This document shows positions 53,342 through 64,000 of a DNA stretch of 64,000 nt, one piece after another. Within the stretch, counting starts at the first letter, position 1. Every line of letters starts with the position of its first letter. The notes beneath the pieces are model-generated. The model was not told the origin of the DNA and ran no database searches. It saw only the letters and a program-made list of their open reading frames with translations. This stretch comes from Streptomyces sp. NBC_01294. GTDB lineage: Bacteria > Actinomycetota > Actinomycetes > Streptomycetales > Streptomycetaceae. The stretch lies in assembly GCF_035917235.1 (NCBI RefSeq), contig NZ_CP108423.1, forward strand, positions 5,981,501 to 6,045,500. The letters run 5' to 3'. The position numbers and the translations under genes were made by a program.

Positions 53342-54343
53342 ATGGACATTGCTTACATCCCCAGTCCGTCGACCGGCGTGATCCATCTCGGACCGATCCC
53401 GCTCCGCGGCTACGCGTTCTGCATCATCATCGGCGTCTTCGTCGCCGTCTGGCTCGGCAACCGGCGCTGGATCGCGCGCGGCGGAAAGCCGGGCACGGTC
53501 GCGGACATCGCCGTGTGGGCGGTGCCGTTCGGCCTGGTCGGCGGTCGCCTCTACCACGTGATCACCGACTACCAGCTCTACTTCGGCGAGGGCCGCAACT
53601 GGGTCGACGCCTTCAAGATCTGGGAGGGCGGCCTCGGCATCTGGGGAGCGATCGCGCTGGGCGCGGTGGGTGCCTGGATCGGCTGCCGGCTGCGCGGCAT
53701 CCCGCTGCCGGCCTGGGCGGACGCCCTGGCCCCCGGTATCGCGCTGGCCCAGGCCTGCGGACGCTGGGGCAACTGGTTCAACCAGGAGCTGTACGGCCGG
53801 GCCACCGACCTGCCGTGGGCGGTGGAGATCACCGCGGGCCCGAACCGGGACGCCGGGACCTACCACCCGACCTTCCTGTACGAGTCGCTGTGGTGCGTCG
53901 GCGTCGCCTTCCTGGTGATCTGGGCCGACCGCCGCTTCACGCTCGGCCACGGGCGGGCCTTCGCCCTGTACGTCGCCGCGTACTGCGTCGGCCGCGGCTG
54001 GATCGAGTACATGCGCGTCGACGAGGCGCACCACATCCTGGGCCTGCGGCTGAACGTCTGGACCTCGATCGTCGTCTTCATTCTGGCGGTCGTCTACTTC
54101 GTGCTCTCGGCGAAGCTGCGGCCGGGCCGCGAGACGGTCGTCGAGCCGGACGCCTCCGGCGGCAAGGGCGGCAAGGGCGGGGACGCGGAGGCCACCGAGG
54201 CCGAGGCCGGGGACGAGCCCTCGGACATGTCGGAGGCCAAGGTCGAGGCGTCCGTGCTGACGAAGGGCGAGCTCGCCAAGGCCGACCTGCGCAAGCCGCG
54301 GCGGACCGAGGACGACACCACCGCGGAGTCCGACACACCCTGA
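53342..54343 (+). CDS. lgt: Lgt, prolipoprotein diacylglyceryl transferase
   Basis: Membrane enzyme that attaches diacylglycerol to the lipobox cysteine, the step before LspA (13788). 333 residues, seven membrane segments in the first 265. The catalytic region GRWGNWFNQELYGRATDLPW, YHPTFLYESLW and the Arg-containing GRGWIEYMRVDEAH are intact. The last 65 residues are an acidic, Glu/Ala/Lys-rich cytoplasmic tail, longer than in E. coli. A TAGCGT 10 bases before the ATG could be a -10 box, giving a very short leader. Confidence 0.95.
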   Translation: MDIAYIPSPSTGVIHLGPIPLRGYAFCIIIGVFVAVWLGNRRWIARGGKPGTVADIAVWAVPFGLVGGRLYHVITDYQLYFGEGRNWVDAFKIWEGGLGIWGAIALGAVGAWIGCRLRGIPLPAWADALAPGIALAQACGRWGNWFNQELYGRATDLPWAVEITAGPNRDAGTYHPTFLYESLWCVGVAFLVIWADRRFTLGHGRAFALYVAAYCVGRGWIEYMRVDEAHHILGLRLNVWTSIVVFILAVVYFVLSAKLRPGRETVVEPDASGGKGGKGGDAEATEAEAGDEPSDMSEAKVEASVLTKGELAKADLRKPRRTEDDTTAESDTP

Positions 54344-54356
54344 CCCGAACGCTCTG

Positions 54357-54393
54357 CAAGAGGGGTGCCGCACACGCCGCGGCACCCCTCTTG
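54357..54393 (+). terminator. lgt terminator
   Basis: 14-base perfect arms (54357-54370 and 54380-54393) around a 9-base loop, and further pairing of GAACGC (54347-54352) with GCGTTC beyond the stem. It begins 13 bases after the lgt stop. Confidence 0.88.
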
Positions 54394-54420
54394 CGCGTTC
54401 CGATATCAGCGGGAGCCGCT

Positions 54421-54520
54421 ATCAGCCCCGCCGGCGTTTGAGGCGCGGGGTCCGGGGCGGAGCCCCGATCTTTGAGCCTCGCCGGCGATTGAGGCGCGGG
54501 GTCCGGGGCGGAGCCCAGGG
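54421..54520. repeat. Two copies of the dispersed repeat
   Basis: Two successive elements in the same orientation, AGCCCCGCCGGCGTTTGAGG from 54424 and AGCCTCGCCGGCGATTGAGG from 54476, each followed by GCGCGGGGTCCGGGGCGGAGCC. They lie between lgt and the end of the seven-gene operon. Confidence 0.85.
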
Positions 54521-54561
54521 AAGCCGCGCCGCGCTCGGCTCCGCGGGAGCACGGGCTCCGC

Positions 54562-55377
54562 TCAGCGCGCCGGGACCCGCGCGGCGAGCGCAAGGGTGCG
54601 GTGCGCAGCCGCCACCACGGCCGGATCCACGAACCGCCCGTCGGGCAGCGCCAGCGCCCCCGGCGTAGCCCGGGCCGCGCTCAGGACCTCCACCGCGGCG
54701 TTCACCTCCTCCGGCGCCGGCAGATAGGCACGCTCGATCACCGGGAGCTGCCGCGGGTGGATCGCCGCCCGGCCGAGGAACCCGAGGGCGCGACCGCGGA
54801 CGCAGGAGACGGCCAGCGCCTCCAGGTCCCGGATGTCCGGGAAGACGGATTGGGCGGGGGGCGCCAGCCCCGCCGCCCGCGCGGCCACCACCACCCGCGA
54901 GCGGCACCAGTCCAGGCCCGCCTCCGCGCTGACGGCCAGGTCGGCCCGCAGGTCCGCCTCGCCGAGGGAGAGCCCGCGCAGGGCGGGGTGCGCGCGGGCG
55001 ATCTCGTACGCGCGCTCCACGCCCACCGCCGACTCCAGCAGCGCGTGCAGGCTCACTCCGCCGGTGCGGACGGCGACGGCGGCGATCTGCTCCGGGGCGC
55101 TGATCTTGGGCAGCCGCAGCCCCGCGAGGCCGTGCAGCCCGCCGAGCGCGGTGAGGTCGGCGCCGCCCCAGGGGGAGTCGAGGGCGTTGACGCGGACGTG
55201 GACGGGCACCGGTGGCCGCTCGCCGAGCAGGTCGGCGGTGGCGGCGCGGGCGTACTCCTTGCGGGAGGCCGGTACCGCGTCCTCCAGATCGACGATGACG
55301 GCGTCCGCCCCGCAGCCGAGGGCCTTGGCGACCACCTCGGGGCGGTCGCCGGGCGCGTACAGCCAGGTCAGGATCAC
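54562..55377 (-). CDS. CitE-like lyase (HpcH/HpaI aldolase family)
   Basis: Protein of 271 residues of the citrate lyase beta / malyl-CoA lyase family. Mg-binding and acyl-CoA motifs are visible: WLYAPGDRPEVVAKA, ADAVIVDLEDAVPASRKEYAR, HVRVNALDSPWGGADL, the catalytic-region LHALLESAVGVERAYEI, and RALGFLGRAAIHPRQL. It is a stand-alone form without citrate lyase partners, so C-C cleavage of a short acyl-CoA is likely. Last gene of the seven-gene operon; its GTG overlaps the stop of the CoA-transferase gene. Confidence 0.85.
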   Translation of the reverse strand: MILTWLYAPGDRPEVVAKALGCGADAVIVDLEDAVPASRKEYARAATADLLGERPPVPVHVRVNALDSPWGGADLTALGGLHGLAGLRLPKISAPEQIAAVAVRTGGVSLHALLESAVGVERAYEIARAHPALRGLSLGEADLRADLAVSAEAGLDWCRSRVVVAARAAGLAPPAQSVFPDIRDLEALAVSCVRGRALGFLGRAAIHPRQLPVIERAYLPAPEEVNAAVEVLSAARATPGALALPDGRFVDPAVVAAAHRTLALAARVPAR

Positions 55378-56564
55378 AGGGCTCCCCCGCTCCGCAGCGC
55401 GGTGATCTCGGCCTCGGTCAGGCCGAGTTCGGTCAGGACCTCCCGGGTGTCCGCCCCGTGCGGGCGGCCCGCCCAGCGGATCCCGCCGGGGGTCTCGGAG
55501 AGCCGGAAGAGGATGTTCTGCATCCGCAGTGGTCCCAGCTCCGGGTCCTCGATCTCGGTGACCGTGTCGAGGGCCGCGAACTGGGGGTCCTCCATCACGT
55601 CCCGGACGTCGTAGACCTGGGCGACGGCCGCCTCGGCCTCCTCGAAGGCGGCGACGACCTCCTCCGCCTTGTGGCGGGCGATCCAGCCGCCGACCGCGTC
55701 GTCCAGGACGTCCGCGTGCCGGGCCCGCCCGGCGCCGGTCGCGAACCACGGCTCGCCGATCAGCTCGGGCCGCCCGACCAGCCGCACCACCCGCTCGGCG
55801 ATGGACTGGGCGGAGGCGGAGACCGCCAGCCAGCGGCCGTCGGCGCTGCGGTAGGTGTTGCGGGGGGCGTTGTTGGCGGAGCGGTTGCCGGTGCGGGGCT
55901 GGACGTAGCCGAGCTGGTCGTACCAGAGCGGGTGCGGGCCGAGCACGGTCAGCATCGGCTCGATGATGGCCAGGTCCACGACCTGTCCGTGCCCGGTGCG
56001 GTCCCGGCCGGCGAGGGCCGTCATGACGGCGTACGCGGTGGTCAGCGCGGCGATCGAGTCGGCGAGCCCGAAGGGCGGCAGCGTCGGCGGACCCTCCGGC
56101 TCGCCGGTGATCGCGGCGAACCCGCTCATCGCCTCGGCGAGCGTGCCGAAGCCCGGGCGGTGGGCGTACGGGCCGTGCTGGCCGAAGGCCGTCACGCGGG
56201 CCAGGACCAGGCGCGGGTTGGCGGCGGACAGCTCGGGCCAGCCCAGCCCCCACCTCTCCAGGGTGCCGGGGCGGAAGTTCTCGATGACCACGTCGGCCGT
56301 GGCGGCGAGCCGCAGCAGGGTGTCCCGGCCACCGGGCGTGGACAGGTCGAGGGTCATCGTCCGCTTGTTCCGGCCGAGCAGCTTCCACCACAGGCCGATG
56401 CCGTCCTTGGCCGGGCCGTGGCCGCGGGAGGGGTCGGGACGGTCGGGGTGCTCGACCTTGACGACCTCGGCTCCGAAGTCGCCGAGCAGGGTGGCGGCGA
56501 GGGGCCCGGCGAAGAGGGTGGCGAGGTCGAGCACGCGGAGCCCCTGCAGGGGCCCGGCGGTCAT
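55374..56564 (-). CDS. CaiB/BaiF class III CoA-transferase
   Basis: CoA-transferase of 396 residues from the ATG at 56564 (a GTG one codon earlier is possible). It shows LQGLRVLDLATLFAGPLAAT, DFGAEVVKVEHPDR, VVIENFRPGTLERWGL and the catalytic Asp region FGLADSIAALTTAYAVMTAL. Family members move CoA between carboxylic acids such as carnitine, formate/oxalate, mesaconate or succinate. Together with the CitE-like gene it suggests activation and cleavage of an organic acid. It overlaps its neighbours by 1-4 bases on both sides. Confidence 0.9.
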   Translation of the reverse strand: MTAGPLQGLRVLDLATLFAGPLAATLLGDFGAEVVKVEHPDRPDPSRGHGPAKDGIGLWWKLLGRNKRTMTLDLSTPGGRDTLLRLAATADVVIENFRPGTLERWGLGWPELSAANPRLVLARVTAFGQHGPYAHRPGFGTLAEAMSGFAAITGEPEGPPTLPPFGLADSIAALTTAYAVMTALAGRDRTGHGQVVDLAIIEPMLTVLGPHPLWYDQLGYVQPRTGNRSANNAPRNTYRSADGRWLAVSASAQSIAERVVRLVGRPELIGEPWFATGAGRARHADVLDDAVGGWIARHKAEEVVAAFEEAEAAVAQVYDVRDVMEDPQFAALDTVTEIEDPELGPLRMQNILFRLSETPGGIRWAGRPHGADTREVLTELGLTEAEITALRSGGAL

Positions 56565-57475
56565 CACGAGGCGGCTCCGGGCTGCGTCGCGGCGAAGGCG
56601 TCGGTTTCGGCGCGGGCGGGCATCGAGTCCTGGGCACCGGGGCGCTGGACGGACAGCGCGGCCGCCGCCGAGGCCCAGCGCAGGGCGACGGGCATCGGCC
56701 GGCCCTCGCCGAGGGCCACGGCCAGGGCGCCGACGAAGGTGTCCCCGGCGGCGGTGGTGTCCACGGCCCGGACCCGGGGCGCGGGCACGGAGAGGGGCTC
56801 CCGGCCGCGGGCGGCGTACAGGACGCCGGCCGCGCCGAGGGTGATCACCACCTCGGGCACGTCGTCCAGCAGGGCCTCGGCGGCCTGGCGGGGGTCGGTG
56901 AGCCCGGTCAGGGTGGCGGCCTCGTGCTCGTTGGGCACCAGGAGGTCGGTGGCGGCGAGGAGCTCGGCGGGCAGCGGCTGGGCGGGGGCCGGGGTGAGCA
57001 CCGTACGGACGCCGTGCGCGCGGGCGGCGCGGGCGCCGGCGAGGACGGCGGGGAGGGGCAGTTCGAGCTGGAGGAGGAGGGAGCCGGCGGCGGCGATCCG
57101 GGCGTCGTCGCCCGCCTCCAGCCCGGTGACGTGGGCGTTGGCGCCGGGGATGACGATGATGCTGTTGCCGCCCTCGTCGTCCACGGTGATGTGGGCGGTG
57201 CCGCTGGCGCCCTCGACGGTGCGCAGGGCCGCCGTCTCGACCCCGGCCGCGGTGAGCGCGGAGCGCAGCCGTACGCCGAACTCGTCGGCTCCGACCGCGC
57301 CGATCATCACCACCTCCCCGCCGGAGCGGGCGGCGGCGACGGCCTGGTTGGCGCCCTTGCCGCCGGGGACCGTGCGGAAGGCCCGGCCGGTGACGGTCTC
57401 CCCGAGGCGGGGGGCCTTGGGGACGTAGGCGACGAGGTCCATGTTCGTACTGCCGAGCACGGCGATGGCCGTCAT
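56564..57475 (-). CDS. rbsK: Ribokinase-type PfkB sugar kinase
   Basis: 303-residue PfkB-family kinase. N-terminal substrate region VLGSTNMDLVAYVPKAPRLG and glycine signature VPGGKGANQAVAAARSGG are those of ribokinase. The C-terminal signature DTTAAGDTFVGALA holds the catalytic Asp and anion hole. Ribose or a ribosyl nucleoside is the likely substrate. No ribose transporter or repressor is adjacent, so the sugar probably comes from inside the cell, released by the ADP-ribosylglycohydrolases encoded upstream. The start overlaps the preceding gene (ATGA). Confidence 0.88.
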   Translation of the reverse strand: MTAIAVLGSTNMDLVAYVPKAPRLGETVTGRAFRTVPGGKGANQAVAAARSGGEVVMIGAVGADEFGVRLRSALTAAGVETAALRTVEGASGTAHITVDDEGGNSIIVIPGANAHVTGLEAGDDARIAAAGSLLLQLELPLPAVLAGARAARAHGVRTVLTPAPAQPLPAELLAATDLLVPNEHEAATLTGLTDPRQAAEALLDDVPEVVITLGAAGVLYAARGREPLSVPAPRVRAVDTTAAGDTFVGALAVALGEGRPMPVALRWASAAAALSVQRPGAQDSMPARAETDAFAATQPGAAS

Positions 57476-59187
57476 GAGCGTGCTGCCTCCTGTGCGGTGA
57501 GGTGGGCGAGGGTGTCGAAGCCGATGCCGTCGAAGCCGGGGACGGTGGTGGCGAGGCGGTTCTTGAGGGGGGTGGTCCAGCGGTCCGGGAGGGCGTCCGG
57601 GGAGCCGGCGACCAGTCCGGCGAGCGCGCCGGCGGTGGCCCCGTTGGAGTCGGTGTCCCAGCCGCCGGACACGGCGCGGCAGACGGAGCGGGTGAAGTCC
57701 CCGTCGGCGTGGGTGAGGGCGGCGGTGATCAGGGCGGTGTTGGGCACGGCGTGGACCCAGTGGTAGTGCCCGTAGCGCGCGTGCAGCCGGTCGACGACCA
57801 GGTCGAAGCCGGCCGTGTCCCGTGCGGCGCCGATCGCGAAGCGGACGGCCTCGGCGAGGCGGGAGCGGGGCGGTACGACGGCCAGTCCGGCCCGGAGCGC
57901 GGCGTGCACGTCGGCGCGGCCGGTCGCCGCCTCGGCGGTGGCGGCGGCGACGAACAGGGCGGCGTAGACGCCGTTGCCGGTGTGGGTCAGTGCGGCGTCC
58001 CGGTACGCCTGGGCCGCGGCGGCGGCCGGGTCCCCGGGGTTGGTCCAGCCGTGGACGTCGGCGCGGATGAGGGCGCCGATCCACTCGCGGAAGGGGTTGT
58101 GGTGGGTGGCGGTGGCGGGCGGCTCCAGCCCGAGGAGGAGGTTGCGGTAGGCGATGCGCTCGGCGGTGAAGGTCCGCCCGGCGGGCAGCTCGTCGAGCCA
58201 CAGGCGGGCGACGTCGGCGGTGGTGAAGCCCTTGCCGTGCCGCTGGAGCAGGAGCAGGCCGAGGAGGGGGTAGTTCAGGTCGTCGTCCTCGGGCATGCCG
58301 TCGATGTTCTCGGCGAGCGAGGTGGGGGCGGAGCGGCGGTTCCACGGGTACGCGGCCAGCAGCTCCGGCGGGACGCCGCGGGCGGTGAACCAGTCGTCCA
58401 GCGGCCAGTTGCCGGCGGCGCGGGCGAGGGCGCGGATCCCCTCCAGCGGCAGCTTCTCGACGGGCTTGCCGAGCAGACACCCGACGGCCCGCCCGAGCCA
58501 GGCGGCCTCCAGCCGGGTCCGCAGACCGGTGCCGGCCCCCGGGACCCGCGAAGCCGGGGCCGTGTCCCGGGGCCCCGCTCCGAGGGCGGGCTCCCGGCCC
58601 CCTGTCGTCCGGGGCAGGCCCCGGGGGCCTGGATCGGGGCGGGTGCCCCGATCCAGGCCTCCGGCAGGTTGGACGGGCTGGACGGGCTGGACGGGCCCGG
58701 TGGGCAGCGCGTCGACTGCCGGGCGGAGGGCCCCGGCTTCCCCGGCGCCCGCGCCCGCCGCGGCGGTGGGGGGCTGCGCGCGGGTGTCGGGCGCCGCCCG
58801 CGAGGTCCGGGCCGTGGGTGCGGTCGCGGCTTCGCCGCGCCAGGGCGGGACCTCGGGCCAGGCGGCGCGGATGGACTCCCAGGAGTCCGGTTCGTCGGCG
58901 GAGAGCGGGCGGGGAAGGGAGGCCAGCTCGTCCAGGAGGCGGGACGCGAGGGCGCGGAGTTCCGGGGGCGCCGGGGTGGGGGAGGCTCCGGCCCGTTCGG
59001 GCGCCGGGTGGCCGCCCGCCGCCGGCCAGGCCCGCCGGGCGGATCCGGCGTCCCGGCCGTCCTCGGCGGCCTGCCGCAGCTCGTGCCCGATCAGGTCCTC
59101 GGGCTGCGCCCAGGTCAGGCGTACGGGGGGACCGGGCGCGGGTCCCTCCGTACGCCCGGTTCCGTTCCCGCAGGCAGCACCGCTCAC
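57472..59187 (-). CDS. ADP-ribosylglycohydrolase-family protein A
   Basis: 571 residues. The N-terminal part (1-115) has a conserved-looking helix, LTWAQPEDLIGHELRQAAED. A Pro/Ala/Gly-rich linker (about 116-222) includes a PVQPVQPVQP run, and the DraG-like domain starts near residue 225 (LEAAWLGRAVGCLLGKPVEK). The usual GDALG reads GCLLG, and the metal motif TDDT is replaced by EDDDLNYP, while the C-terminal SGGWDTDSNGATAGALAG keeps the paired Asp. This looks like a distinct DraG subfamily with metal binding preserved. The GTG at 59187 overlaps the stop of paralogue B. Confidence 0.85.
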   Translation of the reverse strand: MSGAACGNGTGRTEGPAPGPPVRLTWAQPEDLIGHELRQAAEDGRDAGSARRAWPAAGGHPAPERAGASPTPAPPELRALASRLLDELASLPRPLSADEPDSWESIRAAWPEVPPWRGEAATAPTARTSRAAPDTRAQPPTAAAGAGAGEAGALRPAVDALPTGPVQPVQPVQPAGGLDRGTRPDPGPRGLPRTTGGREPALGAGPRDTAPASRVPGAGTGLRTRLEAAWLGRAVGCLLGKPVEKLPLEGIRALARAAGNWPLDDWFTARGVPPELLAAYPWNRRSAPTSLAENIDGMPEDDDLNYPLLGLLLLQRHGKGFTTADVARLWLDELPAGRTFTAERIAYRNLLLGLEPPATATHHNPFREWIGALIRADVHGWTNPGDPAAAAAQAYRDAALTHTGNGVYAALFVAAATAEAATGRADVHAALRAGLAVVPPRSRLAEAVRFAIGAARDTAGFDLVVDRLHARYGHYHWVHAVPNTALITAALTHADGDFTRSVCRAVSGGWDTDSNGATAGALAGLVAGSPDALPDRWTTPLKNRLATTVPGFDGIGFDTLAHLTAQEAARS

Positions 59188-60329
59188 CGGGGGTCCGCGA
59201 TCGCGGTGAAGGCCGACTCGTGGGCCCGGCGGCGGGTGCGGTCCAAGGCGAAGATCTCGCGGGCCACGGCGGCCAGCGACCGGGCCGGGGCGTGCAGGTC
59301 GAGGCGGCTGGCCTCGGCGACCTGCTTGGCCCAGGCCGCAGGGATCACCGCCTCGCCGCCCAGGGCCCCCGCGATCGCCCCCGCCATGGTGGCGATGGAG
59401 TCGCAGTCCCGGCCGTAGTTGACGGCGCCGAGGACCGAGCCCTCGTACCCTCCGTCCGCGATCAGCAGCATGCCGAGGGCGATCGGCAGTTCCTCGATGG
59501 CCTGGAGCCGGGAGGGGCGGCGGGCGTCGAGCGAGGGGTTGCGGTAGTCCGGCCCGACCGAGTCGTACGGGGCCACCGCCGCCCGCAGCGGGGTCAGCGC
59601 CGACTCGAAGTCCCGGTGGGCGGCGGCCACTTCGCACACGGCCGCGATCGCGGTGCGCGTGCCGTCCTTGGCCAGGGCCAGGGCCGTGTCCACGACCGAG
59701 GCCGCCGTCGCCCCGGGCACGCACGCGGCCGCCACCGCCGCCGCGAACACGCCCGCCGCCTCCCGCCCGTACGAGGACTGGTGCGCGCCGGCGATGTCCA
59801 GCGCCTCGGCGTACGCGCCCGCCGGGTTGCCCGCGTTGGCGATGCCCGCCGGCGCCATGTACATCGCCGCACCGCAGTTGACGATGTTGCCGCTGCCGGC
59901 CTCGCGCGGGTCGACGTGCGCGTAGTGGAGGCGGGTGACGATCCACTTCTCCGCCAGGAAGACCCGCTGCAACGGCAGGGCCTCGGCCTCCAGTTCGGGG
60001 ATCCAGCGCGGGGTGGACATGAGGTCCGGGACCAGGTGCTCGGCGATCGCGTAGGCGTCGAGGTGGTCCCGTACGGCCTCGTAGACCCGCACCAGCGCGT
60101 GCGTCATCAAGGTGTCGTCCGTGACGTGTCCGTCGCCCTTGTGGTACGGCGCGATGGGGCGGGCCGTGCGCCAGTTCTCGTACCAGGGGCCGACGATGCC
60201 GTGCACGCGGCCGCCGTGCCGTTCCACGATCTGGTCCGGGGTCCAGCCCTCCACCGGGCCGCCGAGCGCGTCGCCGACGGCCGCTCCGACGAGGGCGCCT
60301 GCGGCCCGGTCCTCCAACGTGAGCGTCAT
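59184..60329 (-). CDS. ADP-ribosylglycohydrolase-family protein B
   Basis: 381 residues, a single DraG-like domain. The N-terminal GALVGAAVGDALGGPVEGW, the metal motif HVTDDTLMTHAL and the C-terminal NYGRDCDSIATMAGAIAGAL are all present, so both Mg/Mn-binding clusters look complete (DxDS instead of DxDT). Family members remove ADP-ribose from arginine, serine or small molecules. It is the canonical enzyme of the four along with paralogue D. Start and stop overlap neighbours by four bases. Confidence 0.9.
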   Translation of the reverse strand: MTLTLEDRAAGALVGAAVGDALGGPVEGWTPDQIVERHGGRVHGIVGPWYENWRTARPIAPYHKGDGHVTDDTLMTHALVRVYEAVRDHLDAYAIAEHLVPDLMSTPRWIPELEAEALPLQRVFLAEKWIVTRLHYAHVDPREAGSGNIVNCGAAMYMAPAGIANAGNPAGAYAEALDIAGAHQSSYGREAAGVFAAAVAAACVPGATAASVVDTALALAKDGTRTAIAAVCEVAAAHRDFESALTPLRAAVAPYDSVGPDYRNPSLDARRPSRLQAIEELPIALGMLLIADGGYEGSVLGAVNYGRDCDSIATMAGAIAGALGGEAVIPAAWAKQVAEASRLDLHAPARSLAAVAREIFALDRTRRRAHESAFTAIADPR

Positions 60330-62350
60330 GTCCGAATCATCCCCTGAGGTTTGGGTGAGGTGAGTTCCGTGCGCGCGAGGAGCGCGGCGAGTTCGACGAG
60401 GTCGGTGCCGGCGAGGCGGGGCAGGGCGCAGCCGGAGAGGGTGCGGCAGGCCTCGCGCCAGGCGGCGGGGATCGAGTCGCCGCCGCCGAGCACACCGGTG
60501 AGCGCTCCGGCGAGGGCGGGGGCGGAGTCCGCGACGCGGGACAGGCAGGCGGCGGCCGGGACGGCCTCGGTCACCCTGCCGCGGGCGGCGGTCGCGAGGG
60601 CGAGGGCCACGGGGACGGTCTCGGCGGCGGCGATCCCGTAGCTGTAGACGTGGTCCACGATCTCGTGTTCGAGGGTGGGGACGATGGCGAAGGCGCCGCC
60701 GTCGGCGTGCGTACGGAGGTGGGTGCGGGCGAGTCCGACGGCGTGGCGGGCGTTGCGGCCGATCTCGGTGGCCTCGGGGAGCTGGGCGAGGGCGGCGTCC
60801 ACGGCGGCGTCGACGTTCCCGGTGGTGAGGGCGGTGGCGATGGCGGCGGCCATGGCGCGGGCGCCGTGGACGCCGTCGCCGTCCTGCGTGTAGCGGGCGT
60901 CGAACTCGGCGAGGTCGGCCGCCGCCGCGGCGTCGCCGGGATGGACGACGGCGAGGACGCAGGCGCGGATGCAGGCGGCGTCGTCGAAGTAGTGCGGGTT
61001 GTCGTGGCCGGTGGCGGGCGGGCGCAGGCCGGCGGCGAGGTTGCCGAGGCCGGCGCGGACGGAGATCCGGGCGCGGAGGGGGAGGACGGCGGACTCGACC
61101 TCGGGCGCGCGTTCCGCCGCCGCGGCGACCTCGGAGGCGAGGGCGTTCCACGCGAGGTCGATGGCGGCGCGCATTCTTCTGGACCGGCTGAGGTCGGAGA
61201 GCAGGACGCCGGCGGCGGTGAGCACGGACTCGGCGACGAACGCGGCCCATTCGGCGTCGTCGGACGGGCCGAGGCGCAGGGGTTCGGGGGGCTGGTTGAG
61301 GGCGATGGGGACGGGGAGGGTGGTGGTGGCGTTCTGCTCGGCGAAGGTGTCGAGCTCGCGGGTGAGGCGGCGGGTCCACTCGGGCATCCGGCTGGCGCGG
61401 TGGCGGGCGGCGGGCCAGCCGGCGGCGTCGCCTGCGGCGAGCCCGAGGAGGAGTCCCTCGATGCGGCGTTGGCCGGCGGCGGGCTGGGCGGGCTGGACGG
61501 TCCGTGCGTCGGCCGGGCCCGTACGGGGTTCCGCGCGCAGGACCCCGACCCCGCCGCCGGGGGCTCCGGCGGCCCGCACCACGGCGATCTCCCCCACCCC
61601 GCCCCTTCCCGAAAGCAGGGGCAGGCCCCTGGACCCCGGGTCCACCGGTGGCCCGGACCCCGGTTCCGCCGGGCCCGCGGCCGGTCCCGCTTCGGCCGGG
61701 GCCGCCGGGACCGGCCGGTCCACCGTCGGCCCCGCCACCGACAGGCCGGGGAGGGCCGGAACGGGAGCCATGTCCACCGGGAAGGCAGCCGGTCCTGCCG
61801 GGGCGGCGGAGGCCGGGTCCGGCGGGAGGGTGGTGGAGCGTGCCGGGCCGGCGGCCGGGTCTGCCGGGAGGGCGGCGCGGGCGGCGCGGGTGGCGCGTGG
61901 GCCGGGTTCGGCCGGGGCGTGCCCGCCCGCAGAGGGCCCGACCGGCGGCAGGCCGAAGCGGGCCGGGGTGGCCGTGCCTGCCGGGAGGGCGGGCACGCCT
62001 GCCTGGTCGGCAGCCGGGTCCGGCGGCAGGGTGGTCGAGCCTGCCACGACGAGCCTCATGCCTGCCGGGGCGGGGGCGGGGTCCGTCGGAAGGGTGGCGA
62101 GGGCCGTGGGTGGCATCGGATCGACCGGGCCCCGCCCGCCCGCGGCCGTCCCGGCCGAGGGCAGTCCGGGACGGGCCGGGACGGGGGCGCGGCTCGCCAC
62201 GGCGGCGGCCGGGTCCGGCGGGAGGGTGGCCGGGGCTGCCGGGGCTGCCGGGGCTGCCCGGGCGGGGGCGGGGGCCGGGGTCGGCGGGAGGGTGGCGAGG
62301 GTGGTGTGTGTGTGTTCGGTCGGGGGGTTGGCGGGGGCCTCCGGGGTCAT
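60326..62350 (-). CDS. ADP-ribosylglycohydrolase-family protein C, with long low-complexity N-terminus
   Basis: 674 residues if the ATG at 62350 is used (it overlaps the stop of paralogue D). Residues 1-294 are almost only Pro, Ala, Gly, Thr, Val and Leu, with a recurring TLPPDPA motif (about residues 42, 107 and 174, with variants near 87 and 161). The DraG-like domain starts near 296 (RIEGLLLGLAAGDAAGWPA). It has SDDAEW for the first metal motif, but the C-terminal DxDT is replaced by RVADSAPALAGALTG, so one ligand pair is missing. It may be inactive or regulatory. A later start cannot be excluded. Confidence 0.8.
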   Translation of the reverse strand: MTPEAPANPPTEHTHTTLATLPPTPAPAPARAAPAAPAAPATLPPDPAAAVASRAPVPARPGLPSAGTAAGGRGPVDPMPPTALATLPTDPAPAPAGMRLVVAGSTTLPPDPAADQAGVPALPAGTATPARFGLPPVGPSAGGHAPAEPGPRATRAARAALPADPAAGPARSTTLPPDPASAAPAGPAAFPVDMAPVPALPGLSVAGPTVDRPVPAAPAEAGPAAGPAEPGSGPPVDPGSRGLPLLSGRGGVGEIAVVRAAGAPGGGVGVLRAEPRTGPADARTVQPAQPAAGQRRIEGLLLGLAAGDAAGWPAARHRASRMPEWTRRLTRELDTFAEQNATTTLPVPIALNQPPEPLRLGPSDDAEWAAFVAESVLTAAGVLLSDLSRSRRMRAAIDLAWNALASEVAAAAERAPEVESAVLPLRARISVRAGLGNLAAGLRPPATGHDNPHYFDDAACIRACVLAVVHPGDAAAAADLAEFDARYTQDGDGVHGARAMAAAIATALTTGNVDAAVDAALAQLPEATEIGRNARHAVGLARTHLRTHADGGAFAIVPTLEHEIVDHVYSYGIAAAETVPVALALATAARGRVTEAVPAAACLSRVADSAPALAGALTGVLGGGDSIPAAWREACRTLSGCALPRLAGTDLVELAALLARTELTSPKPQGMIRT

Positions 62351-63333
62351 CGGGGGGCCTCGTATTCGGGGGTGAGGAGGTCCGCGATGTCCAGGACGTG
62401 GTAGCCCCGCATCGAGGGGAGGCAGCTGCCGCGGACCGGGCCGATGGCCGAGGACCAGGCGGCGGGGATCGCGGCGGCGCCCGACATCGCGCCGGCCAGC
62501 GCGCCCGCCACCGCCGCCGTGGTGTCCGCGTCGCGGCCCATGTTGACCGCGGTCAGGACCGAGGACGGGAAGTCGCCCCGGCACGCCGCGAACGCGCCGA
62601 AGGCGAGGCCGACGGCTTCGGGGGCCAGGTCCGTCCACGGGTAGCCGCCGATGACCACCGCCGAGCGCACCGCCCGTTCGCCGCGCGGGGCGGCGGTGAC
62701 CGCCCGGCGCAGCGAGCGGGCCGTCCAGGAGTCCGAGGGGATCACGGACAGGGCCGCGGAGACGACGGAGGCCGGGCTGCCGCCGGCCATCGCCGCGGCC
62801 ACGCCCGCCGCCACCGCCTGGCCGCCGTAGATGCCCTCGCCGTCGTGGCTGACCGTGCCGTCGATGGCGACGAGCCGGGCCGCCTCCGCGGGCCGGCCCG
62901 CCGCGAAGACTCCGAACGGCGCCGCCCGCATCGCCAGGCCGTCCGACCACGCGTGCCGGTGCTGCGCGGAGATGGGGGCCGCCAGCCCCCGGCGGAGGTT
63001 CTCCAGGGTGCCGCGCTCCGAGAAGCCCGCGCCGCGGAACGGGCCCTCGTCGAGGTCCGCGATCCAGTGGTGCCAGGCCCGCTCCACGTGGGAGACGGTG
63101 AGCGCCGAGCCGTGGCGGGCCAGCAGCAGCCCCGAGAAGATCGCGTACTCGGTGTCGTCCGTGCCCGCCGGGTCGTCCGACACGAAGCCTTCGATGCGGC
63201 CCCATTTCGCCCGGATCTCCGACGGCTTCATGTTCTCCGCCGGGGCGCCCAGCGCGTCGCCCACCGCGAGGCCCAGAAGAGCGCCCCTGGCCCGTTCGAG
63301 GAGGACCTGCGGATTGCATGCAATCAGCTCCAT
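62347..63333 (-). CDS. ADP-ribosylglycohydrolase-family protein D
   Basis: 328 residues, first gene of the operon. A complete DraG-like domain: ARGALLGLAVGDALGAPAE, the metal motif GTDDTEYAIFSG and the C-terminal NMGRDADTTAAVAGALAG. The ATG at 63333 has GGAGAGG upstream (AAGTGGAGAGGCGCGCC). A perfect 14-base palindrome lies across codons 3-8 (63312-63325). It is read away from the VIT1-like gene. Confidence 0.9.
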   Translation of the reverse strand: MELIACNPQVLLERARGALLGLAVGDALGAPAENMKPSEIRAKWGRIEGFVSDDPAGTDDTEYAIFSGLLLARHGSALTVSHVERAWHHWIADLDEGPFRGAGFSERGTLENLRRGLAAPISAQHRHAWSDGLAMRAAPFGVFAAGRPAEAARLVAIDGTVSHDGEGIYGGQAVAAGVAAAMAGGSPASVVSAALSVIPSDSWTARSLRRAVTAAPRGERAVRSAVVIGGYPWTDLAPEAVGLAFGAFAACRGDFPSSVLTAVNMGRDADTTAAVAGALAGAMSGAAAIPAAWSSAIGPVRGSCLPSMRGYHVLDIADLLTPEYEAPR

Positions 63334-63393
63334 GGCGCGCCTCTCCACTTGATGGGACTCATGATGAGCCCTTGGGGGATTTGTGCCATGGCA
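63312..63393. promoter_or_regulatory. Cluster of palindromes at the head of the ADP-ribosylglycohydrolase operon
   Basis: Three symmetric sites lie close together: GATTGCATGCAATC (63312-63325, perfect 14 bp, inside the first gene), CTCATGATGAG within 63350-63370, and TGCCATGGCA (63384-63393, perfect 10 bp). The last two are upstream of the start. Which one, if any, is an operator is unclear. The rest of the 247-base divergent gap (to 63580) shows no convincing promoter hexamers. Confidence 0.4.
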
Positions 63394-63580
63394 TGTGGTT
63401 TGTCGCTCGTCGCGAAACACCCCGCGCGCCCCGTCGTCACCCGGTCGCCGACCCGCAAAACCGCAGGTAAGTACGGCCTTCCTTGCTGGCGGGCGGCAGA
63501 AATCGTGCGTAGTTTCGAGGTGTTCAGGGGGAGCGGGGCGCGTCACGGCGCCCGTTGGCACAAATGGGGAGATACGCCGC

Positions 63581-64000
63581 ATGTCCATCATTGACATCGA
63601 AGCACCACTGCACACCGCCCACCGCGACAACCACACCCACCGCGACGTCAACGGTGGATGGCTGCGGCCGGCCGTGTTCGGTGCGATGGACGGGCTCGTC
63701 TCCAACCTCGCGCTGATGACCGGCGTGGCGGGCGGCGCCGTCGCCCCGCAGACCATCGTGATCACCGGCCTGGCGGGTCTCGCGGCAGGCGCCTTCTCGA
63801 TGGCGGCCGGCGAATACACCTCCGTCGCCTCGCAGCGCGAACTGGTCCTCGCCGAACTCGACATCGAGCGTCAGCAGTTGCGCAAGCACCCGGTCGACGA
63901 GATGGAGGAGCTCGCCGAGCTCTACGTCTCCCGCGGCGTCGAGCCGCCGCTCGCCCGCGAGGTCGCCATGCAGCTGTCCCGCGACCCCGAGCAGGCGCTG
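63581..64000 (+). CDS. VIT1/CCC1-family transporter (3' end outside the window)
   Basis: Open to the last base of the window: 140 codons with no stop. The product begins MSIIDIEAPLHTAHRDNHTH, a His-rich start. It continues with the family's first membrane segments, VFGAMDGLVSNLALMTGVAG and ITGLAGLAAGAFSMAAGEY. The hydrophilic region ELAELYVSRGVEPPLAREVA is typical of the cytoplasmic metal-binding domain. VIT1/CCC1 proteins carry Fe2+ or Mn2+. GGGGAG precedes the ATG. Confidence 0.9.
   Translation, partial: MSIIDIEAPLHTAHRDNHTHRDVNGGWLRPAVFGAMDGLVSNLALMTGVAGGAVAPQTIVITGLAGLAAGAFSMAAGEYTSVASQRELVLAELDIERQQLRKHPVDEMEELAELYVSRGVEPPLAREVAMQLSRDPEQAL

Follow-up and report, generated by a model that had tools for sequence, protein, structure and literature searches.

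A coupled seven-gene block encoding four ADP-ribosylglycohydrolase-like proteins in Streptomyces, and its linkage to a sugar importer in other actinomycetes

The window analysed here is a stretch of 64,000 nucleotides from Streptomyces sp. NBC_01294 (contig NZ_CP108423.1, positions 5,981,501 to 6,045,500). It contains seven minus-strand genes, numbered g1–g7 in reading order from position 63333 down to 54562, that encode four diverged relatives of the ADP-ribosylglycohydrolases (the DraG/ARH family), a ribokinase, a class III coenzyme A (CoA)-transferase and a CitE-like lyase. The features of the locus, in window positions, are as follows.

62347..63333, minus strand: g1, DraG/ARH-type ADP-ribosylglycohydrolase-like enzyme with complete TDD and DADT motifs; ATG start; PF03747, 205.1 bits.
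60326..62350, minus strand: g2, divergent ARH-fold protein with VADS instead of DxDS, a possible partner of g1; ATG start; PF03747, 117.5 bits.
61481..62350, minus strand: N-terminal tail of g2, Pro/Ala-rich, about 290 residues.
59184..60329, minus strand: g3, ARH-type hydrolase with complete TDD and DCDS motifs, a core gene; ATG start; PF03747, 164.1 bits.
57472..59187, minus strand: g4, ARH-type hydrolase with DDD as its first motif and DTDS, a core gene; GTG start; PF03747.
58842..59121, minus strand: helical domain at the N terminus of g4, conserved (LTWAQPEDL...); a low-complexity linker whose length varies runs on from it to about 58501.
56564..57475, minus strand: g5, ribokinase; ATG start; TIGR02152 and PfkB.
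55374..56567, minus strand: g6, class III CoA-transferase; GTG start; PF02515, 407.7 bits.
54562..55377, minus strand: g7, CitE-like C–C lyase of the beta-hydroxyacyl-CoA lyase type; GTG start; PF03328, 101.8 bits.
63334..63593, minus strand: operon upstream region, with no LacI-type palindrome and with a block conserved in Streptomyces at about 63460–63493.

An open reading frame check of the window showed that all seven genes are open and that each ends in a single terminal stop. Neighbouring genes overlap by 4 bases throughout, except that the GTG start of g6 is directly followed by an in-frame ATG; if translation begins at this second codon the g5/g6 overlap is 1 base, the value given in the sequence-only reading. 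All seven products match their families above the Pfam cut-offs, namely PF03747 (g1–g4), PfkB (g5), CoA_transf_3 (g6) and HpcH_HpaI (g7). These matches, the orthologues and the conservation of the overlaps described below rule out chance reading frames. The 8.5 Mb genome, in two contigs, contains eight PF03747 matches, four of which are g1–g4. The operon is flanked by genes that we take, from their sequences, to be trpA-, lgt- and VIT-like.

A genome collection was scanned with the g4 domain and the best 80 of at least 539 relatives were kept, which are the closest matches and not a random sample; 79 are titled Streptomyces and one ‘Actinobacteria bacterium’. The complete g1–g7 set, in order, was found in 38 of these loci (37 plus L105, where the g1 match is in two pieces), and a further 21 have all genes but g5 (20 plus L144, where the g2 match is in two pieces). 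The other 21 are partial, mostly at contig ends, although L099 lacks g1, L110 lacks g1–g3 and L137 lacks g2–g3 despite available sequence. Where both neighbours could be read, a 4-base overlap was present at g4/g5 in 52 of 52 loci and at g6/g7 in 77 of 77, and was frequent at g5/g6 (48/52), g1/g2 (47/59) and g3/g4 (42/69); the g2/g3 junction has it in only 15 of 67 loci, with a 7-base gap in 28. In loci without g5, g4 overlaps g6 in 21 of 24 cases. Because the same overlaps recur among the 80 loci they are not a product of chance. Moreover, among 61 sampled genomes g2 (E < 1e-160) was detected in 26 of 37 from the same genus (this strain included) and in 0 of 24 others. Together these data bear out the sequence-only reading of the locus, which had described seven coupled minus-strand genes encoding four diverged ADP-ribosylglycohydrolases, a ribokinase, a CoA-transferase and a CitE-like lyase; the Pfam and NCBIfam matches agree with each of these assignments. 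That the gene order might be unique to this strain no longer holds, given its recurrence in Streptomyces and, as shown next, in other actinomycete families.

In a class-wide sample of 394 genomes, 72 contained g4 matches at E <= 1e-20. Thirty-one of these lie outside the genus (E <= 1e-95 or near), and the loci of 16 were fetched among 30 stretches, to which three loci from a plasmid collection were added. This gave 17 non-Streptomyces loci with both g3 and g4 (L157, from Nonomuraea gerenzanensis, L188–L200, L213, L216 and L217). In 16 of the 17 the module adjoins genes for a LacI-type regulator, two permeases of a sugar ATP-binding cassette (ABC) transporter and a solute-binding protein (SBP); the exception, L213, starts at g3 and is cut by the contig end. 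Scanned examples matched LacI with Peripla_BP_3, BPD_transp_1 and SBP_bac_1, respectively, and the PDB relatives of the SBP are mostly named sugar-binding proteins. Fourteen of the 17 loci have g6 and g7, 13 have g5 and 13 have g1 with g2. In L198 the order is g6, g7, LacI, permease, permease, SBP, g3, g4, g1, g2; such reordering, with the genes kept together, argues for a functional connection rather than inheritance alone. The sequence-only reading had stated that no transporter accompanies the genes, which is correct for the window only. More distant relatives of g4 adjoin ribokinase and sugar ABC transporter genes in Mycolicibacterium and Deinococcus plasmids. In L201–L206 a g4-type gene occurs without g1–g3, partly with ribokinase or transporter genes, and in L207 g1–g2 and a g4-type gene surround transporter genes.

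A further protein, here called X, of about 620–710 residues, is encoded before g6 in 10 of the 17 non-Streptomyces loci:

L188, 12030-14033: protein X; also in L189–L191, L197, L199, L200, L213, L216 and L217.

X was found in 19 of the 394 class genomes and lies within about 2 kb of a g4 homologue in 18 of the 19 (the exception is G267); it is nearly exclusive to the g1–g7-type gene set outside Streptomyces. Its C-terminal part matches an FGE-sulfatase domain above the Pfam cut-off, with EgtB/SenA models below theirs. The N-terminal part has no convincing PDB profile match (best E 0.009, a designed protein) and, as judged from its motifs, looks like a (beta/alpha)8 glycoside hydrolase barrel.

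The situation within Streptomyces is different. None of the best 80 loci contains a match (E <= 1e-3) to LacI, the permeases, the SBP or X, and 59 of these loci have at least 4 kb of sequence upstream of g1. A single Streptomyces locus, L228 in genome G014, was seen with LacI, both permeases and the SBP in front of g1. LacI-type palindromes such as CGTAAACGTTTACA and TGGAAACGTTTCCA occur close to the start of LacI in L228 and in 13 of the 16 non-Streptomyces loci, LacI start coordinates being approximate on minus-strand loci. They are absent in L194, L199 and L217, the last of which could be tested over 151 bases only. Such a palindrome is present in just one (L137) of 60 Streptomyces upstream regions of 260 bases each, the window's included, and the same rule finds none in the whole 64-kb window. 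It thus appears that most Streptomyces sampled have lost the importer, the repressor and the operators together.

SBP homologues (E <= 1e-40) are present in 25 of the 37 same-genus genomes, the linked one of G014 included. By coordinates only that of G014 is at the operon, although draft contigs leave some doubt for the others, and the genome of this strain has none at this threshold. A transporter encoded elsewhere was considered as a replacement for the lost one and rejected, as the presence of an SBP homologue does not follow that of the operon (18 of 26 genomes with g2, 7 of 11 without). Sets of two permeases and an SBP do occur away from the operon in Streptomyces (L229–L232), about 51–61% identical to the operon importer genes. 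As regards other signals, a promoter and terminator consensus scan gave no match over 54300–63700, and no RNA element reached its gathering score over 54000–64000. Between g1 and the VIT-like gene, which diverges from it, the 60 Streptomyces upstream regions share a conserved block, CCGCCAGCAAGG.AGGC (about 63460–63493), which may belong to either gene.

Two further observations concern the distribution of these genes. In G012, a close relative whose g2 is 94% identical, the operon is dispersed, with g1 alone at 7.16 Mb (L264:7146-8129), g2–g3 at 8.84 Mb (L208:9587-11892) and g4–g5 at 8.88 Mb (L209:9192-10960), near a contig end; g6 and g7 are not present in the stretches read, and this reflects either rearrangement or misassembly. 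In addition, many Streptomyces carry a second, single g4-type DraG gene elsewhere (about 47% identical, about 360 aa; L203, L204 and L215), without g1–g3, g5 or g6 as neighbours.

By their PF03747 domain and ARH fold, g1–g4 belong to the DraG/ARH family. All 76 orthologue rows of g1 keep the metal-motif Asp residues (and 75 of them T58); the metal-motif residues of g3 are invariant in 90 of 90 rows and the Asp residues of g4 in 102 of 102, the Thr of TDD being replaced by Asp in g4 to give DDD. In g2 the motif is incomplete: residue 316 (domain numbering), the first Asp of DxDS, is V, L, T, N or Q in 81 of 82 rows and a gap in one, and g2 is nonetheless conserved. A comparison of the paralogues groups g2 with g1 and indicates that the paralogy of g1–g4 is ancient. 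Moreover, g1 with g2 and g3 with g4 mostly occur as pairs. The suggestion made from the sequence, that four paralogues in a row form a complex or act on a series of substrates, is thus partly addressed: the pairing and the loss of a metal ligand in g2 fit a g1/g2 heteromer, but do not demonstrate one.

The solved structure closest to g1 by sequence is Rhodospirillum rubrum DraG (2woe). However, the model for DraG proper (TIGR02662, cut-off 337.05) scores only 79.2 with g1, 58.0 with g3 and 20.0 with g4, and does not match g2; the Tri1 ADP-ribosylarginine hydrolase model (NF041672, cut-off 490) gives 45.6 with g1 and 49.0 with g3. An ExxA adenine motif has been described for DraG (PMC7050489, accessible text). 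In a phmmer alignment no Glu stands at the corresponding place in g1, the position of Glu121 being our reading of the numbering; a Glu lies nearby in g3, where the alignment is weak, and g4 matched nothing. Hydrolysis of ADP-ribosyl bonds by g1–g4 is putative.

The Pro/Ala-rich tail of g2 ranges from 1 to 394 residues across the other loci measured, and its codon-position GC pattern is coding-like yet weaker than in the g2 domain. This insert at the start of g2 (61481–62350) is hypervariable and of low complexity, with repeats of the TLPPDPA type. Both its length and that of the g4 linker (58501–58842) vary widely between Streptomyces loci, with the overlapping start codon mostly unmoved. The g4 N-terminal domain carries the motif W.QPEDL in 49 of 49 aligned rows, out of 79 g4 sequences, and also in L157, L188 and L197–L200. 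The g4 prediction has a pLDDT of 67–93 over residues 1–90 and below 50 in the linker. A whole-protein structure search, which barely probed the N-terminal domain, gave only weak rows for it.

The g5 protein passes the ribokinase equivalog TIGR02152 (314.8 against a cut-off of 299.65) and falls below the ribokinase model NF008353 (281.2 against 341). Every NCBIfam cut-off listed lies above the g6 score, the best match being NF052585, succinate–glutarate CoA-transferase (229.7 of 750). The best NCBIfam match of g7 is RipC_Ccl. Pathways of the itaconate/citramalyl-CoA type pair a class III CoA-transferase with a CitE-like lyase (RipC/Ccl), and g6 and g7 are adjacent members of the same enzyme classes. 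The operon nevertheless differs from itaconate degradation systems (Ict/Ich/Ccl, Rip), as g7 scores 144.3 against a cut-off of 375, g6 reaches no equivalog cut-off, and no hydratase or dehydratase accompanies them among the seven genes.

The association of a DraG-type gene with a sugar kinase and an importer is already known, and g1–g7 is a variant of it. The yegTUV genes of Escherichia coli encode a putative nucleoside symporter, a putative ADP-ribosylglycohydrolase and a putative sugar kinase under the repressor GgaR/YegW, and none of the three genes has a clear known function according to the accessible text of PMC10819704. The likeness lies in a DraG-type hydrolase, a sugar kinase and a transporter in one operon with a dedicated repressor; a linked transporter and repressor gene are absent from the best 80 loci and present in 16 of the 17 non-Streptomyces loci and in L228. 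However, yegTUV has a major facilitator superfamily symporter and a GntR-family repressor where the relatives of g1–g7 have an ABC importer and LacI; it also has a single hydrolase and neither a CoA-transferase nor a lyase (NC_000913 annotation), and YegU forms a very long branch outside g1–g4. Clusters on plasmids of Mycolicibacterium arabiense (L158) and Deinococcus aetherius (L159) combine LacI, a carbohydrate ABC transporter, ribokinase and a g4-type DraG protein (44% and 37% identity, respectively). They contain one or two DraG genes, and their annotated stretches show neither a CoA-transferase nor a CitE-like gene. A ribose locus of Bacteroides that includes a DraG gene was looked for in the literature and not found, and none of the papers listed in open-access searches treats the g1–g7 operon.

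In Streptomyces coelicolor, SCO2028–SCO2031 are four adjacent DraG homologues, like g1–g4, and are probable orthologues, judging by the four-in-a-row position and the trp locus at SCO2038. The group, given as SCO2028–2031 or SCO2028–2030, has been listed among uncharacterised DraG homologues or potential hydrolases (PMC9411070, PMC5087735), and S. coelicolor, like this strain, has eight family members per genome. The accessible portions of those papers do not describe an operon, coupling, CoA-transferase and lyase partners or importer linkage.

With a carbohydrate importer linked to LacI in the ancestral operon, the genes are most simply read as serving to take up and break down a ribosyl (or other glycosyl) conjugate of an organic acid. 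We regard it as reasonably probable that g1–g7 form such a catabolic operon, the importer and repressor having been lost in most Streptomyces sampled. The substrate would join ribose, or a sugar like it, to an organic acid or to an aglycone that yields one, and would ancestrally have been imported by the LacI-regulated ABC transporter of the same operon. The g1/g2 and g3/g4 proteins would cleave glycosyl bonds, probably N- or O-ribosyl, through a two-metal centre. The freed sugar would be phosphorylated by g5 for the pentose-phosphate pathway, g6 would activate the freed acid, of hydroxy-dicarboxylic type, to its CoA form, and g7 would cleave the beta-hydroxyacyl-CoA so formed, giving acetyl-CoA and a 2-oxo acid. 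Most Streptomyces sampled, this strain included, would have kept the enzyme block and fed it by another transporter or from an internal compound. The gene set, its overlaps and conservation, the importer linkage in relatives, the ancient paralogy and the state of the metal motifs are observed; the LacI control is inferred, as are, from the protein families, all the reactions and the identities of sugar and acid.

Several results weigh against this uptake-and-breakdown scheme. Of the 59 loci with the six remaining genes, 21 have no g5, so ribose phosphorylation by the operon is dispensable; this, together with the lack of g6 and g7 in the fetched stretches of three of the 17 non-Streptomyces loci (L157, L195 and L196), argues against a rigid pathway. 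Four of the 17 lack g1 and g2 (the contig-cut L213 among them), the predicted g2 fold is ARH-like with low TM-scores, and g6 and g7 have no hydratase beside them. Streptomyces loci have lost the linked importer, and SBP homologues elsewhere in the genome are not associated with the operon. Finally, the ARH activities (DraG, ARH3) described in the accessible portions of the literature examined all act on ADP-ribosyl groups. A bolder version of the scheme is tentative at best, and on balance doubtful: that an undescribed pathway uses two ARH-fold pairs, g1 with the metal-defective g2 and g3 with g4, to process a glycosyl-ribosyl-organic-acid conjugate taken up from outside, and that Streptomyces switched to an internal ribosylated metabolite.

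The sequence-only reading had proposed catabolism or salvage of a ribosylated or ADP-ribosylated metabolite made in the cell. Its catabolic logic, from glycohydrolase and ribokinase to CoA-transferase and C–C lyase, stands, and the hypothesis is in this respect partly supported. The evidence does not favour an internal substrate ancestrally, since the same genes lie beside a LacI-linked sugar ABC importer outside Streptomyces and the ancestral substrate was most likely imported. In Streptomyces the substrate may be internal, importer and LacI being missing from the loci examined. That the importer-less operon was re-purposed for such internal salvage would account for enzymes that are still coupled and about 63–98% identical to those of the window in loci free of LacI, permease and SBP matches, for the lack of a palindrome in all but one of the 60 upstream regions, and for a genome without a close SBP homologue. 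We consider it rather unlikely, however, as an unrelated transporter could serve and G014 shows that an external substrate is still used within the genus.

Reversal of protein or nucleic-acid ADP-ribosylation, as by DraG, ARH1 and ARH3, with the metabolic genes as bystanders, appears improbable. It leaves unexplained why, across families, the hydrolase genes are linked to those for importer, kinase, CoA-transferase and lyase; g1 falls far short of the DraG and Tri1 models, and, on our numbering, the ExxA Glu is missing from g1. In addition, SCO2028 and SCO2030 were inactive on an ADP-ribosyl-uracil (U-alpha-ADPr) probe, according to the accessible text of PMC13036486. One negative substrate leaves others possible; compare SCO5809, an ARH-like protein of S. 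coelicolor outside the group of four, for which removal of ADP-ribose from RNA phosphate ends is described in the accessible text of PMC11833690. An immunity or defence module against ADP-ribosyltransferase (ART) toxins, on the model of ART–ARH pairs, is very improbable. The structures that match g4 include the ART/ARH toxin–immunity structures 6dre and 8za7 along with many other ARH structures, whereas the seven proteins include no ART family (no search for ART genes covered the whole genome), the Tri1 model is far below its cut-off, and the genes are conserved with metabolic and transport genes instead.

The uptake-and-breakdown reading has consequences for the family. Judging by their genomic partners, the four adjacent Streptomyces DraG homologues listed as putative ADP-ribosylation hydrolases, probably the counterparts of g1–g4, are more likely to be carbohydrate-catabolic, and such a role would shift assays to small molecules that carry ribosyl groups. 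With g2, a conserved sister of g1 that lacks a metal ligand, the idea of a pseudo-glycohydrolase acting in a possible pair can be tested. Streptomyces, having lost importer, repressor and operators, clearly illustrates how a catabolic operon can be cut off from its input. If the two-pair conjugate pathway were true, much of the bacterial ARH family would be small-molecule glycosidases and not erasers of ADP-ribose.

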